Assembly (NCBI GenBank): GCA_013375355.1
Contig: JABXJV010000184.1
Location: forward strand, 1-41,022
DNA length: 41,022 bases
Source of the DNA: Candidatus Helarchaeota archaeon
GTDB lineage: Archaea > Asgardarchaeota > Lokiarchaeia > Helarchaeales > JABXJV01
Direction: 5' to 3'
The position numbers and the translations under genes are program-made. This document shows, in pieces, positions 1,006 through 35,508 of the stretch. The notes under the pieces are model-generated. The model was not told the origin of the DNA and ran no database searches. It was given only the letters and a program-made list of their open reading frames with translations. The first letter of the stretch is position 1. Each line of letters starts with the position of its first letter.

Positions 1006-2310
1006 TTACCAAATACTAATGTGTTCTTGACATATTGGACATTTTTGAGAGTGTTTTACATATTCTTTCCAACAACATTTATGGAAAATTCTTTTACAAT
1101 GCGTACACCTTATTTGACATTCAAACTCTCCCTGAACTCCAGGAATTGTTCCTGAAACATTTTTTGAGCAATAAGGACAAACCAAATTTTTACATGTACT
1201 GCATACGAATTTAGAGGTTTCTGCCATACTATCTCTTAAAATATTAAAAAATTCAGCTAAATTAGAAGCAGGAAACCATTCAATAATGAAATCATTAATT
1301 GCATTTTGAAATTTTTCTGAAAGTTGTTGATCTTCGGGTAAAGTAACTAGGTTTATAGCTGGTGGAGAAGAAGGATAGTTATTAGGAATTTGAATATCAA
1401 ATTTATATTTTTTAGGATTTGTTTTAGATTCTGTAAGAGAAACATGAATGATATTATTAACTGATTCAAATACCGCATCTAAATCTTTTTGTTTCAAAAG
1501 TTTCAATTCTAAATTAATTCTTAATTTCTTATCTAAAATCCCTGAAATTTCTCTAAGTATGTGAACAACATGACTACTAGTCGGATTCCAAGATCTTATT
1601 GATTTTAAACTATCTAAAAAAATGAATTTTTCCATTTTTTGAGAGGGAATGATTTTTGGGAGTTGAGGAAAGTCTTTCAAGTCAACTTCAAGATCAAATT
1701 CTTCAGCATCCAAACTGTAAATATGAATTTTTAATTTAGTTGATAATTCTGTGGGTTGTTCAACATCAAATTCATGATAAAGACTTTGGACTTCCTCATC
1801 TAGTCTTGATTTTCCCAGAATTTCTTCTTCAATTGTTCGAAGAATATCAACAAGATGAGCTGGAGGTTGTTGCGGAAAATCTTTAATTATGGCAATTGAA
1901 TTTGGAGGTCCGAGGAGATCTGTCAGTCCTGGAGGAAATGAAATTTCAATTCGATTTGGATAATTTTGGCATTTAAGTTCTACTAGATAATAAGTGCCAA
2001 TTGAGGAATAAAAATCTACTTTAATATGAGTTACATTTTCAGGATTTAATTCCACTTGAAAATTATTAATTACTGATTCTATCTCTTTTTTTAAAATTTT
2101 TTCTTGTTCAGACAAATTTTTTTCTATTGAAGTAATTTTATTTGAAATTTCTTTATTTTTCTTTTCTATTTCTTCTACTTTTGAGGTATATTGAGATAAA
2201 TTAATTTGTCCTGAATTAAAATCACTTTTTAATTCAAAATTCTTTAGATTATTTTTTTCAATCTCTTCTTCTAATTTGAAAATTAAATCTAAAGGTTTTA
2301 AAGAATTCAT
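1006..2310 (-). CDS. Coiled coil, three E2/RWD-like domains and C-terminal RING: putative ubiquitin E3 ligase
   Basis: A 434-residue protein. Residues 1-70 are Lys/Glu/Asn-rich and predicted coiled coil. Three segments follow (about 85-165, 175-265, 270-362), each ending in the E2/RWD-type closing helix (PPAHLVDILRTIEEEIL; SWNPTSSHVVHILREISGIL; EWFPASNLAEFFNILRDSM). The third has the RWD hallmark YPSSPP. No segment shows an E2 catalytic Cys, so they look like non-catalytic UEV/RWD folds. The C-terminus has zinc ligands C370, C373, C378, C381, C398, C402, C405, H410, C412, C413, C424 and C427, with GTIP before the central Cys and FHKCCW and CPIC after it. That pattern is close to the RINGs of FANCL and listerin, and E2-like x3 plus RING is the FANCL layout. 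It is last in an operon behind the roadblock and 90-aa genes; an AGGT lies upstream of the ATG. The E3 role is inferred. Confidence 0.72.
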   Translation of the reverse strand: MNSLKPLDLIFKLEEEIEKNNLKNFELKSDFNSGQINLSQYTSKVEEIEKKNKEISNKITSIEKNLSEQEKILKKEIESVINNFQVELNPENVTHIKVDFYSSIGTYYLVELKCQNYPNRIEISFPPGLTDLLGPPNSIAIIKDFPQQPPAHLVDILRTIEEEILGKSRLDEEVQSLYHEFDVEQPTELSTKLKIHIYSLDAEEFDLEVDLKDFPQLPKIIPSQKMEKFIFLDSLKSIRSWNPTSSHVVHILREISGILDKKLRINLELKLLKQKDLDAVFESVNNIIHVSLTESKTNPKKYKFDIQIPNNYPSSPPAINLVTLPEDQQLSEKFQNAINDFIIEWFPASNLAEFFNILRDSMAETSKFVCSTCKNLVCPYCSKNVSGTIPGVQGEFECQIRCTHCKRIFHKCCWKEYVKHSQKCPICQEHISIW

Positions 2311-2359: not shown

Positions 2360-2632
2360 TTAAGAAATTTTTTGCTCTCTCAATGCTTTTCCTAGTGTTT
2401 TTCCCCATTTCTCTGCTAAATCTGCCATTATGCCATCAATAGGATCCTGAATTACATCATAACCCCTTAAATCATCTAGAAATTTCCATAGCTGTAATTT
2501 AGTTGCTTTTTTACGAAGATCTCTTCTCGGAAATCTCTTTAAAAACCCATCAATTTTTCCTTTAATTTCAAGACTTAATTTAGTCTTCTTACTTAATTCC
2601 ATAAAATTTTGAATAATTGTACGTGAATTCAT
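2360..2632 (-). CDS. Small basic helical protein of unknown function
   Basis: A 90-residue protein that I do not recognise. It is rich in Lys, Leu and Arg, has no Cys, signal peptide or membrane segment, and reads as an all-helical fold, with a very basic stretch around residues 31-47 (KRFPRRDLRKKATKLQLWKF) and an amphipathic C-terminal helix. Its ATG lies only 5 bases after the roadblock stop codon, and the RWD/RING gene follows 49 bases later, so the three are almost surely co-transcribed. The basic character would suit an adaptor or nucleic-acid-binding role, but the sequence does not show one. It is probably a real gene because of its tight spacing and its lack of competing frames. Confidence 0.6.
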   Translation of the reverse strand: MNSRTIIQNFMELSKKTKLSLEIKGKIDGFLKRFPRRDLRKKATKLQLWKFLDDLRGYDVIQDPIDGIMADLAEKWGKTLGKALREQKIS

Positions 2633-2637
2633 TTAGT

Positions 2638-3087
2638 TCACATCGTATGAATTTTTAAATCTGAAAAATCTACATCTTTTTTCATTGGTTGTTTAGGACT
2701 TAAAGGTAATTTGGCGATTTCTGTAGCTGCTTGATTTAAGGCTAAGAGAGTGATTCCTAAAGATGCACCAGCTGGCAAATTTACTAAAATAAGTGCGTTT
2801 TTTCCTGCACTTTTGACAATCATTTGTCCATTTTCAGAATCGATTAACATTTTAGATAAAGTTCCATGTTCATACATGTCTGTGCTTCGTGTGGCTAAAG
2901 CAAGGATACTAGCTCCTAACCCCGCAGCCACAATTTCAGTCTCATTATCTAGGGGTTTATTTGTTTCCTTATTAAATGAAGTTATTGGTAGTCCATTTTT
3001 ATCTATAATTACTGCAGATTTTATGGCAGTAGTTTCAAGCATCTTTCTTAGGATATCATGCAGTTGCATCTCAATTTTTTTTGACAT
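2638..3087 (-). CDS. Roadblock/LC7 domain protein
   Basis: A 149-residue single-domain roadblock/LC7 protein. The first helix (KIEMQLHDILRKMLETT) leads into the typical AVIIDKNGLPITS strands, the central helix EIVAAGLGASILALATRS, and the paired strands MLIDSENGQMIVKSAG and NALILVNLPAG. The last 25 residues form a charged tail. Roadblock proteins dimerise and act as platforms or GTPase-activating partners for small GTPases (MglB with MglA in bacteria; Ragulator and dynein light chains in eukaryotes), and they are much expanded in Asgard genomes. It is the first gene of a minus-strand operon with the 90-aa and E2-like/RING genes, which hints that the platform may recruit the putative E3. No GTPase gene lies in the operon itself; the nearest is about 6 kb away. 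A GGACGG stretch lies 14 bases upstream of the ATG. Confidence 0.85.
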   Translation of the reverse strand: MSKKIEMQLHDILRKMLETTAIKSAVIIDKNGLPITSFNKETNKPLDNETEIVAAGLGASILALATRSTDMYEHGTLSKMLIDSENGQMIVKSAGKNALILVNLPAGASLGITLLALNQAATEIAKLPLSPKQPMKKDVDFSDLKIHTM

Positions 3088-3276: not shown

Positions 3277-4149
3277 TTAGATTCCTACATCTATATCTCT
3301 AAAAAATTTTCTAGCAAATTCTTTGAATGCGAATATTTCATCATTCGACATAGGATTTCCATCTATTTCTACATTACCTAGTGTTTCAAATGAATGTAAA
3401 TAATCAACATTTTGAATTTTATTATTCCTCAGATACAAATATAGATTGTTTCTTTCTTTATCTAGATGAGATAATCCTTCTAACTTTGAAATTAAGTTAT
3501 TATCAAGATTAATCCATTTTAAATTCTTAAGATTTTCGAGATTTTCTATTCTTTGTATGTTATTGTGACTTAAACCAAGGTTTTTTAATGATATTAATTT
3601 CCCTAATGCTTCAATTTTCTGGATATTATTTTCATCTAAATCTAAATAATTTAAACTCCTCAAATTTTCTAAATTTTCAATTTTAGAGATTTGGTTATTT
3701 ATAATTGATAGAGATGTCAGATTCTCTAATTTTTCAAGTCCTTAGATTTTACTAATATAATTTACATCCAGTTTCAGAATCCTCAAGTTTATTAGGTTCT
3801 CTAACCCTGTTATTTTTTTAATTTTATTTGATCTCAAATCTAATGATTGTAAATTTACAATTTTTTCTAGGTTCTTAATCTCCTTAACTCCACAATTTAG
3901 AAAAGATAATCTTATGATTTCTCTCTCGTGATCCATATTTAATCTGGTTAATAAATCTAAAATATCCCCTTCTCTAACTGCTACATTCTCGAAATATAGA
4001 CTTTGAAATGGTCTTAAATTTTCTATTCCTTTAATTACATGAAGATTTAATAAAGTTAAATCTCTTACTTTAAGCTGAAGTTCATTGAATTGATTCTCTG
4101 TTAGGAAAAATTTCTCGTTATTAATTTCTACATAATTTTTAAACTGCAT
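3277..4149 (-). pseudogene. SDS22-like leucine-rich-repeat protein, interrupted by an in-frame TAA
   Basis: One 290-codon LRR frame runs from the ATG at 4149 to the stop at 3277 but is cut by TAA at 3742-3744. Both halves are in the same frame, and the repeat register continues across the stop: ...NYISKI, stop, GLEKLENLTSLSI.... The normal residue there is Glu (compare SKLEGL and ISKIENLENL elsewhere in the protein), so one G-to-T change of GAA explains it. The N-terminal 50 residues (MQFKNYVEINNEKFF) are a separate cap. About eight 22-residue repeats of the type L-x-x-L-x-L-x-x-N-x-I-x-x-I-x-x-L-x-x-L follow, then a C-terminal cap (GNPMSNDEIFAFKEFARKFF). LRRs of this type bind proteins. An ATG at 3663 could restart the second half. 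This is a recent nonsense mutation, a sequencing error or, less likely, readthrough. Confidence 0.75.
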
Positions 4150-26432: not shown

Positions 26433-27311
26433 TTATTGTGGGTAAAAATAATTTACAAATAATTCTTTTAATAATTCTGATAATTCTTGTGAAAAATTTG
26501 CTTCTTCAATATTCAAGACCGCGAAATAATAATTTGTATAAGGATCTTTTGTAACATTCGCTTTATATCCAATATTTTGAAACTTTTTCTCAATTTTTTT
26601 GCATTTTCCTTTAAAATATCCTTTAATTATTAGATCATTTCTTTGAAATCTGCTATAAGATTTTGTGAAAATATGTGACCATATCTTTTTGGGTGTTTGT
26701 TGATAATTTATTCGGTAATTTGTGCCATAATAATTTGGAATAATTTTTCCATCTAACTCATTCTCAATAAAATTCTCAAAATCATTAACAAAAGAACTAT
26801 TACTTTGAGTTAATATTTTTAAATGGCGATATATTCTTTTTAATCCATTTTTTAACTTTAATTTAACTGGAATTTTTATACTTTGAAGTTTTTCCTCTTT
26901 AATATGATAAATATGACAGTCAATATCCTCAAATTTTGATGAGAGCGTAAATTTATGTGGATCAAAAACTAATCCAATTGCTTTTGGTAGAAATTTTTGG
27001 TATCTCTTTTGAGTATTTATGTCAGTATAGGAGAAAAAATGGGCCCCCATCTTTGGATGAGAGTGATACCAACCAATTATAATTTCATTAGTCATTCTTT
27101 TTTCTAATTGTTCTGTAACTTTTATTATTTCTAAATCAATCATTTTTACATGAGTGGAAGTGCCTTTTTGTTGAGTTGTAGCGGTATCTGTAATTTGAAT
27201 AGTTCCTCTTTTTATTTTTCCAATCAAATATCCTGCGATCTCTTTGCTTAAATCTTTGCTAGAATGTTCAATTATCTTGTAAAATGCCATAGGATGAATT
27301 AAAATGCGCAC
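26433..27311 (-). CDS. JAMM/MPN+ metalloprotease, Rpn11/CSN5-like, with C-terminal extension
   Basis: A 292-residue protein starting at GTG with GGAG 8 bases upstream. Residues 1-130 are an MPN domain: E24 in SKEIAGYLIG, then WYHSHPKMGAHFFSYTDINT with H83, H85, S94 and D97, and IGLVFDPHKF. These are the four JAMM zinc/catalytic residues, and YHSHP...DINTQ is very close to Rpn11. The spacing H-x-H-x11-D is one longer than the usual H-x-H-x10-D. Residues about 150-292 are an unrecognised basic extension. JAMM enzymes cut isopeptide bonds of ubiquitin-like proteins; Asgard genomes encode them with Ub pathways, and this window also has a RING/E2-like protein. It lies between Gfo/Idh and TrpRS genes in one operon. 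Confidence 0.85.
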   Translation of the reverse strand: MRILIHPMAFYKIIEHSSKDLSKEIAGYLIGKIKRGTIQITDTATTQQKGTSTHVKMIDLEIIKVTEQLEKRMTNEIIIGWYHSHPKMGAHFFSYTDINTQKRYQKFLPKAIGLVFDPHKFTLSSKFEDIDCHIYHIKEEKLQSIKIPVKLKLKNGLKRIYRHLKILTQSNSSFVNDFENFIENELDGKIIPNYYGTNYRINYQQTPKKIWSHIFTKSYSRFQRNDLIIKGYFKGKCKKIEKKFQNIGYKANVTKDPYTNYYFAVLNIEEANFSQELSELLKELFVNYFYPQ

Positions 27312-32757: not shown

Positions 32758-35475
32758 TTATAGAAGTTGAGGACCTTTCTTCTTTTTTTTCTCTTCTTCT
32801 TCAATATCTTTTTCAATTTTCTTTAATTTTTTTAGGTCTTCTTCTGATAATTCACGGTCTATTTTTAAAAATGTTGGAGCCGCTTTAGCTTTCTTTAATT
32901 TTTTTTCCTTCTCTTTTTTAATTAAATAATCATCAGAAATTTCTGGATGGAGTAGGACTTCTCCTAATAGCATTAGAAACTCGTATAATTCGACTCTTTG
33001 TAACCGTTCCTTTTTATATTCTTCTAATTCTGCCTCTATTTTACGACCTTCATAAGGTCTTGATGCTAACAATCCTTCTTTTTGTTTTTCATGTTTAAGT
33101 TTATAAGTTCGGGTCTCACCGTTCTCGTCCATGTATGTTACATAACTTGCCTTATCTTTAGCAGCTTTCTCTTGCAATTCATCAAAATAGGATTTAGTTT
33201 TTCCTTTCTTAACTTCGCCAACTACACCTGATTCCTCCCACTCTTTCTGACGTTCGGCATCTAAATCTTTAAATGAAGGGTCTTTTACTTTAAATTTTTT
33301 TTCTAATTTTTTAAATGGTTTGTAGTCTTCTGCGGCATATCTTGCAGTGTCCTTTATTTCAAGCTTTCTCTTACCTTTAAATGGAATATAATCTTCAATT
33401 TCATCTTTGTAATCTTCCGAAATCTCTTCTTTTTCTACTTTTTGGTAGGGCTTAAAATCTTCTGCGGCATAACGAGCATCATCTTTAAGCTCCGACTTTT
33501 CCTTTGGCATTTCTTTGACTTCAGGTAATACATAATCCTCTGCTGCGTGTCGAGCATCATCTTTAAGTTCTAACTCTTTCTTTGGAAACTCTTTGACTTC
33601 AGGTAAAACATAATCCTCTGCTTCGTATCGAGCATCGTCCGTAAGTTCCAACTCTTTCTTTGGAAACTCTTTGACTTCAGGTAAAACATAATCTTCAGCA
33701 GCATATCTAGCATCATCCTTCAGCTCAAGTTTTCGCTTGTAATCTTTATATTCTTCTGGGGCAAAATCTTTTATTTCCTCTTTATAATCTTCTGAAACCT
33801 CTTCCTTCTTCACTTTTTGATATGGAACATAATCAGTGGCAGCGTAACGTGCATCGTCCGTAAGCTCCAATTTTCGCTTATAATCTTTGTATTCTTCTGG
33901 AGCGAAATCTTTTATTTCTTCCTTATAATCATCTGTTAATTCTAGCTTCCGTTTGTATTTCAAGTCTTCAGGAACAAAGTCTTTGGCGGCGTAACGAGCA
34001 TCATCCGTAAGCTCCAATTTTCGCTTATAATCTTTGTATTCTTCTGGAATATAGTCGGTTATCTCCTCTTTATAATCCTCTGTCAGTTCTAGCTTCCGTT
34101 TGTATTTCAGCTCTTCAGGAACAAAGTCTTTAGCTTTATAACGAGCATCGTCTTTTAATTCAAGTTTTCTCTTATAATCTTTATACTCTTCAGGGATGAA
34201 ATCCTTAATTTCCTCTTTATAATCTTCAGTTATTTCAATCTTTCTCTTATAATCTTTATATTCTTCAGGAATAAAGTCCTTTATTTCCTCTTTGTAATCC
34301 TCTGAAATCTCTTCTCTCTCTACTTTTTTATAGGGAATAAAATCTTTTATCTCTTCCTTATATTCATCTGTAATTTCCACTTTTTTCTTTTTTGGAACTC
34401 GTTTCCAATCTTTGGCGACAAATCTAGCAGTATCTTCAACTTCTAACTTTTTCTTTGGAACGCCTTTACCCGCTGCTGCATCAAGAATATCTTTACGTTG
34501 AGCATCAATTGTTTTAAAAGTTAAACCAGTTGGAACCTTAATTTTTCCTTTTACTGTTTGTTTTTTCTTAGTAATTACTGTTTCATCTTGTTTCCATTGT
34601 TCTTCCATAGCCGCATCTATTTGTTTAAAAGTAGGTCCAGTATCTTCTAGAAGTTGTTTCTTCATAGCAGGTGTTTCTTGGGGTTGTAATAGATCGGTTT
34701 GTACAGTATCGATTCGTTTATAGGTGCCTTCTGTATCCTTCATTAGTTCTTTCTTTTCAATGACCGGAGTTACTCCGGGTTGTAATAGAGATTCTTTAGT
34801 GCCAAAATCTTTAACCTCATCTTGAGGATACGTGATTGGAGCCTGTTGAGCTTTTAATTTTGTTTCTATTTCATCTTCATATTGGAGGAAAGTCGGACCT
34901 TTAGGTTCTTCTATTTTTTGTTTTGGTTGTTCTGTAGGAACTTGATATTCGATTTGTTCTTCTACTTGTTCATAAGTTGGTGTATATATTTCAGGTATAG
35001 GTTGTTTTGTAATTTCTGGCTGTTCTGTCTGGCTTTGATAACTGATTTTATCTTCTACTTGTTTATATGTTCCTTGATATACCGTTTCTTCTGAGGGAGT
35101 TTGACCATATTCGGGTGAAGGTTGGATGGTTTCTGGTATTTGTTCTTCAACAGTTTCATAAGTAGGTCTATAATATTCTTCTTGTTCAATAGGAGTTTCT
35201 GGGGGTTGAGTCGTTGGATAATCATAAGGTTGCTGTTCCTCAACAGGAGGTTGCTCAACAGGAGGTTGAGCATAAGATATTGTTTCCACTTTAGGAATTT
35301 CTGGGGGTAATGGTTCAACTACTGGCGGTTTAGGAGTACCCTCTTTACATTGTGAAGAACAAAAGTCCCCTTCTATAAAGAAGCATTTCGAGCACATAAA
35401 TCCTCCACAAGTGGCGCATTTATATTTATGTCTTGGTTTTTTTACATTTTTTCCACAACTTGAACAAATTGGCAA
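32758..35475 (-). CDS. Zinc-finger protein with Pro/Gln-rich linker and 16 charged tandem repeats (actin neighbour)
   Basis: The frame is open to 35508, but GGGGGAG inside it lies 5 bases before TTG 35475, giving a 905-residue protein (M-PICSSCGKN). Layout: (a) a zinc finger, about residues 1-46, CSSC, CATC, CSKC and C-x3-C; (b) a Pro/Gln/Glu-rich disordered stretch to about 330 with repeated P-T-F/Y-x-x-I/V/Y-D/E motifs (PTYETVEEQI, PTYEQVEEQI, PTFLQYEDEI, PTFKQIDAAM, LTFKTIDAQR); (c) 16 tandem repeats of about 20-26 residues with consensus K-R-K-L-E-L-T-D-D-A-R-Y-A-A-x-D-Y/F-V/I-P, alternating with E-D-Y-K-E-E-I-K-D-F-I-P-E-E-Y-K-D-Y; (d) a charged C-terminus, with PTFLKIDREL. Highly charged, no membrane segment. 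A cytoskeletal scaffold or filament-binding role is only inferred from the neighbouring actin gene. Confidence 0.75.
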   Translation of the reverse strand: MPICSSCGKNVKKPRHKYKCATCGGFMCSKCFFIEGDFCSSQCKEGTPKPPVVEPLPPEIPKVETISYAQPPVEQPPVEEQQPYDYPTTQPPETPIEQEEYYRPTYETVEEQIPETIQPSPEYGQTPSEETVYQGTYKQVEDKISYQSQTEQPEITKQPIPEIYTPTYEQVEEQIEYQVPTEQPKQKIEEPKGPTFLQYEDEIETKLKAQQAPITYPQDEVKDFGTKESLLQPGVTPVIEKKELMKDTEGTYKRIDTVQTDLLQPQETPAMKKQLLEDTGPTFKQIDAAMEEQWKQDETVITKKKQTVKGKIKVPTGLTFKTIDAQRKDILDAAAGKGVPKKKLEVEDTARFVAKDWKRVPKKKKVEITDEYKEEIKDFIPYKKVEREEISEDYKEEIKDFIPEEYKDYKRKIEITEDYKEEIKDFIPEEYKDYKRKLELKDDARYKAKDFVPEELKYKRKLELTEDYKEEITDYIPEEYKDYKRKLELTDDARYAAKDFVPEDLKYKRKLELTDDYKEEIKDFAPEEYKDYKRKLELTDDARYAATDYVPYQKVKKEEVSEDYKEEIKDFAPEEYKDYKRKLELKDDARYAAEDYVLPEVKEFPKKELELTDDARYEAEDYVLPEVKEFPKKELELKDDARHAAEDYVLPEVKEMPKEKSELKDDARYAAEDFKPYQKVEKEEISEDYKDEIEDYIPFKGKRKLEIKDTARYAAEDYKPFKKLEKKFKVKDPSFKDLDAERQKEWEESGVVGEVKKGKTKSYFDELQEKAAKDKASYVTYMDENGETRTYKLKHEKQKEGLLASRPYEGRKIEAELEEYKKERLQRVELYEFLMLLGEVLLHPEISDDYLIKKEKEKKLKKAKAAPTFLKIDRELSEEDLKKLKKIEKDIEEEEKKKKKGPQLL
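33265..34470 (-). repeat. Tandem-repeat block coding for 16 charged repeats
   Basis: On the minus strand the codons of 16 related 20-26-residue units follow each other. Two sub-types alternate: one with DDARYAA(K/E)D(F/Y), one with EDYKEEIKDF(I/A)PEEYKDY. Base-level identity between units is also high in stretches (for example TAAAACATAATC and CAGCATATCTAGC blocks recurring near 33480-33710), showing recent duplication, so repeat number may vary among strains. These are coding repeats, not a CRISPR array. Confidence 0.75.
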
Positions 35476-35508
35476 CAAAACTCCCCCTTTGGGGTAATAC
35501 ATTTTCAA

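Follow-up and report, generated by a model that had tools for sequence, protein, structure and literature searches.

A Helarchaeota protein with three UBC/RWD-type folds and a RING-like zinc domain, FANCL-like in build, and its relatives in Asgard archaea

We have analysed a stretch of 41,022 nucleotides from Candidatus Helarchaeota archaeon (assembly GCA_013375355.1, contig JABXJV010000184.1, hereafter the window), which carries on its minus strand, at 1006..2310, a gene for a protein of 434 aa, its start codon (ATG) being at 2310 and its stop codon at 1006, consisting of a helical segment, three domains of the UBC/RWD type, that is, with the fold of ubiquitin-conjugating enzymes (E2s) and RWD domains, and a RING-like zinc domain. 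The orthologue in the Helarchaeota genome LW55_61 (locus L001) is 89% identical, with a nonsynonymous rate (dN) of 0.049 against a synonymous rate (dS) of 0.431 (dN/dS about 0.11, from this one orthologue), and thus 1006-2310 is a real gene. As detailed below, the protein is FANCL-like in its build and is not FANCL by profile.

Long helices occupy residues 1-83 at the N terminus (2062..2310, minus strand, as for all the domains that follow), with the helical segment itself placed at 6-83. This probable coiled-coil or dimer segment, together with a further CxxC pair in the zinc domain (C370, C373), adds to the preliminary description of the locus, which had proposed three E2/RWD-like domains followed by a RING. 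The helices are followed by D1 (residues about 86-167, 1810..2055), an E2/UBC-like fold without the catalytic cysteine, by the RWD-like D2 (residues about 176-263, 1522..1785), and by the UBC/RWD-like D3 (residues about 264-365, 1216..1521), which contains the YPSSPP element reported earlier (residues 312-317). All three domains have the fold of the UBC/RWD superfamily. In profile-profile comparisons (hhalign) the probability was 99.4 between the first and second segments, 68 and 69 between the third, more distant segment and each of these, and 0.1 for an unrelated control; double-RWD kinetochore chains span model residues 175-370, and the family profile of D3 matches yeast E2 13 (2gmi_A) with E=4.4e-6. 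The three repeated segments of the preliminary description are therefore retained, while the motif W/F-P-x-x-x-x-L-x-x-I/L-L said to close each of them is followed only approximately (FPQQPPAHLVDIL, WNPTSSHVVHIL, WFPASNLAEFFNIL). Since the sole cysteine outside the zinc domain is C114, which precedes the YP element and is off the E2 catalytic position, rather than following a YPxxPP/HPN element as in an active E2, none of the three E2-like folds is expected to be active, in agreement with the earlier remark that the E2 cysteine is absent. A Pfam scan of 14 family members at E<=0.1 identified RWD in 14/14 (best 2e-8) and UQ_con in 13/14 (best 6e-11). For the window protein itself RWD was found on D3 with E=0.0017, under the cut-off, and a PDB sequence-profile search with D2 returned no E2/RWD among its 8 matches. 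BIRC6, Rubicon (RH_dom), Med15 and REX1B were rejected as identities, their matches being sub-threshold and partial.

The zinc domain (residues about 369-430, 1021..1206) matches RING profiles and contains all the motifs listed previously: GTIP (387-390), C398-x3-C402-x2-C405, FHKCCW (409-414) and CPIC (424-427). Its candidate ligands were counted over 47 aligned family rows, many of them near relatives, 46 of which include the C terminus. C370, C373, C378, C381, C398, C405, H410, C413, C424 and C427 are present in 46/46 rows and C402 in 45/46; position 412, a cysteine (C412) in the window protein, is H in 36, C in 9 and S in 1. All twelve positions are C or H in 44/46 rows, while the FANCL RING has eight zinc ligands, as is ordinary for a RING; this conservation is suggestive of a domain that binds three zincs. 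RINGs of the RBX1/APC11 type have a third zinc site, which the four extra conserved positions would fit (position 412 is H or C in 45/46 rows). When one family RING was aligned to RBX1 with phmmer (E=0.44 for this sequence alone, the alignment ending before the twelfth position), 10/12 positions coincided with Cys/His of RBX1, with C370/C373 as the first pair and the remaining positions as the third site. The match to RCHY1, an ordinary RING, and the hhalign alignment with the A9 family described below favour the other pairing, in which C378/C381 is the first pair; RCHY1 ranks above RBX1 both with the family RING profile against PDB (E=8.1e-5 and 8.7e-4, respectively) and in phmmer. The top family-profile scores are those of Arkadia-type RINGs (2.6e-5), over the last part of the zinc domain only. 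GTIP occurs in the FANCL RING and in 7/46 family rows, all of sub-group A. The earlier assignment to a FANCL/listerin type of RING is therefore partly right, with the RING profile matches and the shared GTIP in its favour and, on the other side, the 12 ligand positions and the failure to match FANCL profiles.

The predicted structure of the window protein has a predicted local distance difference test score (pLDDT) of 79.5. Foldseek against PDB placed human FANCL first (E=2.4e-8, 396 columns), followed by listerin chains. Another, poorer model from eight near-identical sequences (pLDDT 53.9), used as a robustness check, also placed FANCL first (E=5.9e-8, 392 columns) and gave the same top four matches; lone E2 chains reached at best E=0.01 with the better model and E=0.02 with the poorer one. 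The VIA structural comparison, whose scope is its own list of families, aligned model residues 74-434 to FANCL 2-369, in order and domain by domain. At the level of structure, then, the E2/RWD folds and the resemblance to FANCL anticipated in the preliminary description are confirmed. Sequence profiles gave a different picture. The FANCL models of Pfam (FANCL_d1, FANCL_C) are absent among the 17 families found for the window protein at E<=10, and FANCL_d1 appears in 1/14 family members (E=0.0021, under the cut-off). FANCL_C exceeds its cut-off in 0/227 Asgard genomes; at E<=0.01 it is found in 20/227, every match being under the cut-off, and those in L057 and L058 (genomes G162 and G158) are relatives of a VWA-RING protein discussed below; the other matches looked into were those of G160, G079 and G078. 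Likewise, PDB sequence-profile searches recovered no FANCL in the full lists for D1 (9 matches) and D2 (8 matches), nor among the best 60 matches each for D3, the fourth domain of longer relatives, the RING and the whole protein. The overall proposal of a prokaryotic relative of FANCL-type ligases is thus upheld in part, for the build and not for the FANCL family profile.

The window protein belongs to a family that recurs in other Asgard genomes. Of 227 such genomes searched with a profile of the close alignment, 52 had a match at E<=1e-3 and 39 had one at E<=1e-10, and protein database searches returned 14 relatives, of which those with a named organism are all Asgard (Helarchaeota, Hodarchaeota or Promethearchaeota). 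A tree was built with 44 rows out of the 47 in the alignment. In it, group A (the window type) is one clade (100/100), recognised in 2/227 genomes plus database relatives; group B is one clade (92/82) of proteins of 390-429 aa; and group C comprises 27 rows (95/91), most of them 546-620 aa long and bearing at the N terminus a fourth E2-like domain, whose best PDB match is UBE2K (E=1.4e-5). L044, L045 and L049 fall outside these groups, on long branches that make their placement unsure. Some features of these loci may be recorded here. At L004:1111-1875 a 254-aa protein matches the family D1 in its C-terminal part (E 3e-12) and looks longin/Roadblock-like by eye in its N-terminal part, with no Pfam match at 0.001; tandem zinc-ribbon/RING-like proteins lie immediately downstream of the divergent family members in two genomes (L044:5545-6675, L045:7853-8950); several long group C genes (L012, L014, L018, L025 and others) adjoin a large gene resembling an aminoacyl-tRNA synthetase (isoleucyl type, by eye and from its start); and L005:682-1620, also from an Asgard genome, encodes an unusual pairing of a PCI domain with a clear RING (zf-RING_2 9.7e-10).

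Several relatives are encoded beside genes of the ubiquitin system. The group B paralogue adjoins a gene for a ubiquitin-activating enzyme (E1; ThiF E 2.9e-57 to 4.4e-62) in three of four loci (L039, L042 and L046, not L043), and in L039, which belongs to LW55_61, the E1 is followed by genes for an E2 (UQ_con 5.1e-26), a protease of the JAMM type (8.3e-14) and a VWA-RING protein. With tblastn at E<=0.01, no E2 or JAMM was found in L042, L043 and L046, and two ubiquitins used as queries found none in any of the four loci. LW55_61 has in addition a separate cluster of ubiquitin, E2, E1, an 87-aa RING and a UEV-like protein (L074:6911-10551), whose E1 is 31% identical to that of L039 over 398 aa. 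A link to ubiquitin itself is seen in A9, a distinct Asgard family whose members, 286-288 aa long, combine two UBC/RWD folds with a RING, and which hhalign relates to the window-protein family with a probability of 98.1 (E=1.1e-13) over D2-D3-RING. The A9 genes at L068:7203-8066, L069:7329-8186 and L070:5326-6183 adjoin E1, E2 and ubiquitin, the E2 and E1 genes standing between A9 and ubiquitin in all three. At least 110 of the 227 genomes have matches to A9, five at E below 1e-90 and the rest at 6e-12 at best and partial; all five strong ones (G077-G080, G160) have a ubiquitin match at a distance of 1.8-1.9 kb. RWD, UQ_con and zf-RING_2 pass their Pfam cut-offs in L068, FANCL_C falls just short (E=7.5e-6), and the RING spacing, C-x2-C-x14-C-x4-C-x4-H-x2-C, is one residue off the FANCL RING stretch. 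Judged by sequence, A9 is arguably a better FANCL candidate than the window protein, with a RING closer to FANCL_C; a PDB search by sequence profile gave no FANCL among its 55 matches, and listerin at E=0.27. Ubiquitin was detected in 37/39 genomes with strong family matches and in 165/227 overall (Fisher p 2.8e-4, with relatedness and completeness unaccounted for). The suggestion of a role in an Asgard ubiquitin system consequently finds its support in group B and A9, and not in group A, for which such a linkage was not seen in the visible loci.

Upstream of the 434-aa gene, also on the minus strand, lie a gene for a conserved 90-aa protein (2360..2632; 89% identical in L001 and 50% in L041/L010, with its place kept), which is probably co-transcribed with it, and a gene for a Roadblock/LC7 protein (2638..3087; Robl_LC7 E=7e-11). 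This trio is common to the window, L001 and, in more diverged form, L041 of genome G083. The window also encodes Ras-family GTPases and an ORF judged by eye to be actin-like, which, together with the named relatives of the 434-aa protein, give it an Asgard character. Elsewhere in it, 3277-4149 contains two leucine-rich-repeat ORFs in one minus-strand frame with a stop between them, possibly a single interrupted gene; a JAMM/MPN protease (JAB 8.8e-22) is found at 26433-27311, 24 kb from the 434-aa gene, and is 34% identical over 146 aa to JAMM genes near the L069/L070 ubiquitin clusters; and 32758-35508 encodes a 916-aa protein with a zinc-finger-like N-terminal stretch and many DYKEEI..DDARY repeats, which has no Pfam match at E<=0.01.

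These results are best interpreted, with fair rather than high confidence, in terms of a multi-domain RING ubiquitin ligase (E3) that belongs to the Asgard ubiquitin system and acts in the manner of FANCL. The fold, the domain order, the missing E2 cysteine, the conserved candidate zinc ligands and the operon links of the relatives were computed; from these, by analogy, we infer E2 binding, ligase activity, ubiquitin binding, a substrate role and a partner for the window protein. The zinc domain would recruit the ubiquitin-loaded E2 (E2~Ub), the three inactive E2/RWD folds would be binding modules, with D2-D3 as a double-RWD platform for a substrate, and D1 may bind ubiquitin non-covalently, like the ELF domain of FANCL. 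The N-terminal helices would probably give a dimerisation or partner site, perhaps for the co-encoded Roadblock protein. The roles given to the zinc domain, D2-D3 and D1 are proposed because the analogous parts are known in FANCL, where, in the available text of PMC4543658, the RING recruits the E2, the double RWD binds the substrate and ELF binds ubiquitin non-covalently.

A number of observations weigh against this interpretation. No Pfam family passes its own cut-off for the window protein. The superposition on FANCL is domain-wise and not that of one rigid body (template modelling score 0.22-0.25, root mean square deviation about 25 A). The Cys/His positions that would form a RING cross-brace are conserved and RING profiles match the domain, but the zinc domain is modelled with a pLDDT of only about 51-73. 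Group A was recognised in only 2/227 genomes, and its genes show no E1, E2 or ubiquitin adjacency in the visible loci; in the window, tblastn with 12 ubiquitin-cluster proteins gave, at E below 0.1, matches to the window protein's own D3 and RING and to a JAMM, but otherwise none for E1, E2 or ubiquitin. Two further points concern residues of the RING that contact the E2 or follow the ligands: we take the E2-contact Ile to lie in the first ligand loop and the Arg/Lys to lie directly after the last ligand. If C370/C373 is the first pair, the former position is I/V/L in 44/46 rows, which speaks for a ligase in the family at large, whereas the window protein has Thr372 at this likely position; Arg/Lys stands immediately after the last ligand in 0/46 rows and one residue later in 38/46. 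Both residues matter in the RING of C. subterraneum, and the Arg/Lys is conserved in RING E3s, according to the accessible portion of PMC5654768.

The two deviations just described would also be expected of a non-catalytic scaffold, in which the E2-like folds bind ubiquitin or partners, as in BRE (BRCC45), Knl1 and CENP-O, while the zinc domain has a structural role or serves in protein binding only. BRE (6gvw_C) has Foldseek rank 5 with the better model (E=3.6e-5) and is absent from the best 50 matches of the poorer one; Knl1 and CENP-O match D2-D3 of the better model, and JAMM, the type of enzyme partnered by BRE, is encoded both in the LW55_61 group B cluster and elsewhere in the window. 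FANCL, which is an E3, nevertheless outranks BRE with the better model (one listerin chain is above BRE and two are below), the twelve Cys/His positions are complete in 44/46 rows, and to our knowledge BRE, Knl1 and CENP-O have no RING; overall we regard a scaffold as unlikely. Still less probable is a ligase whose modifier is not ubiquitin proper but a second protein of the ubiquitin-like kind. The L039 locus has E1, E2, JAMM and VWA-RING genes, with ubiquitin not found there at E<=0.01, and the same genome holds the separate L074 cluster with its divergent E1. On the other side, L039 may still contain a distant ubiquitin-like gene, and the related A9 family directly adjoins canonical ubiquitin, E2 and E1.

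The Roadblock neighbour, and the presence of RWD domains in SEA/GATOR complexes, could instead point to a protein of a small-GTPase signalling pathway, with or without ubiquitin, to which we assign a very low probability. Capture of a eukaryotic FANCL or listerin gene by an Asgard lineage would account for the eukaryote-like overall build, and is the least credible of these explanations given that the family is present in 39/227 Asgard genomes with deep branches, and has extra ligand positions, a fourth domain in its long members and no FANCL profile match above the cut-off.

With the FANCL-like ligase as the preferred reading, it is conceivable, and we put it forward tentatively, that an ancient Asgard stock of multi-UBC/RWD RING E3s, including the three- to four-domain and the two-domain families, was ancestral to FANCL and listerin of eukaryotes, and perhaps also to further multi-RWD proteins such as BRE. 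The multi-part build of ubiquitin ligases may accordingly be older than eukaryotes: if such a stock existed, a complex E3 build would predate them, and a widespread Asgard family with the FANCL domain order and relatives in E1/E2/JAMM/ubiquitin clusters would push multi-domain E3s before eukaryotes. With this family, the question of where FANCL- and listerin-type ligases came from can be put to a direct test, and there are archaeal substrates and partners to seek. Single UEV/RWD-like domains are already known in prokaryotes (PMC9192718, PMC1779556, in their accessible text). Archaeal ubiquitin systems are described as made of single-domain proteins in the available text of PMC11354881; Helarchaeota and other groups, as the same text reports, also have E2 homologues with several domains. 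Among the matches listed by a literature search that excluded subscription papers and preprints, none was found to describe, in its accessible text, a RING protein of prokaryotes with multiple UBC/RWD folds.

The window family can finally be compared with known systems. FANCL, the DNA-repair E3 of Fanconi anaemia in humans, has a RING that binds UBE2T and monoubiquitylates FANCD2/FANCI together with the Fanconi core complex. The window family differs from FANCL in its 12 conserved candidate ligands against 8, in the lack of a FANCL Pfam match, in its extra N-terminal helices and in being prokaryotic. Listerin/LTN1 is a long, 60S-bound HEAT-repeat protein that terminates in an RWD and a RING, whereas the window protein has 434 aa, three UBC/RWD folds and 12 ligand positions, with no HEAT-type helical array in its model. 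With the RBX1/APC11-type RING the point of agreement is the ten Cys/His positions, out of twelve, that one family RING shares with RBX1 when aligned by phmmer, but C402 faces a Trp of RBX1, the window zinc domain is fused to UBC/RWD domains, and RCHY1 fits the family profile better. As with the small RING proteins (srfp) of C. subterraneum and Asgard archaea, a RING is encoded beside E1, and in places E2, JAMM or ubiquitin, in group B and A9; those are small proteins (PMC5654768, available text), while three to four UBC/RWD folds are added in the window family and two in A9. The Asgard UEV proteins/Vps23 share an E2 fold without the catalytic Cys, and their ubiquitin binding has been demonstrated, but they go with ESCRT-I parts and no RING is mentioned for them in the accessible text of PMC9192718. 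The bacterial RWD-like domains are likewise inactive E2-like folds, found in E1/JAB operons and proposed to bind ubiquitin, though a tandem UBC/RWD plus RING build is not described in the accessible text of PMC1779556. With FANCL the window protein shares three E2/RWD folds followed by a RING in that order, an inactive E2-like first domain and the GTIP of the RING, so that the order ELF - double RWD - RING (as given in the available text of PMC4543658) is reproduced domain by domain, the RING part of the model being of low confidence.
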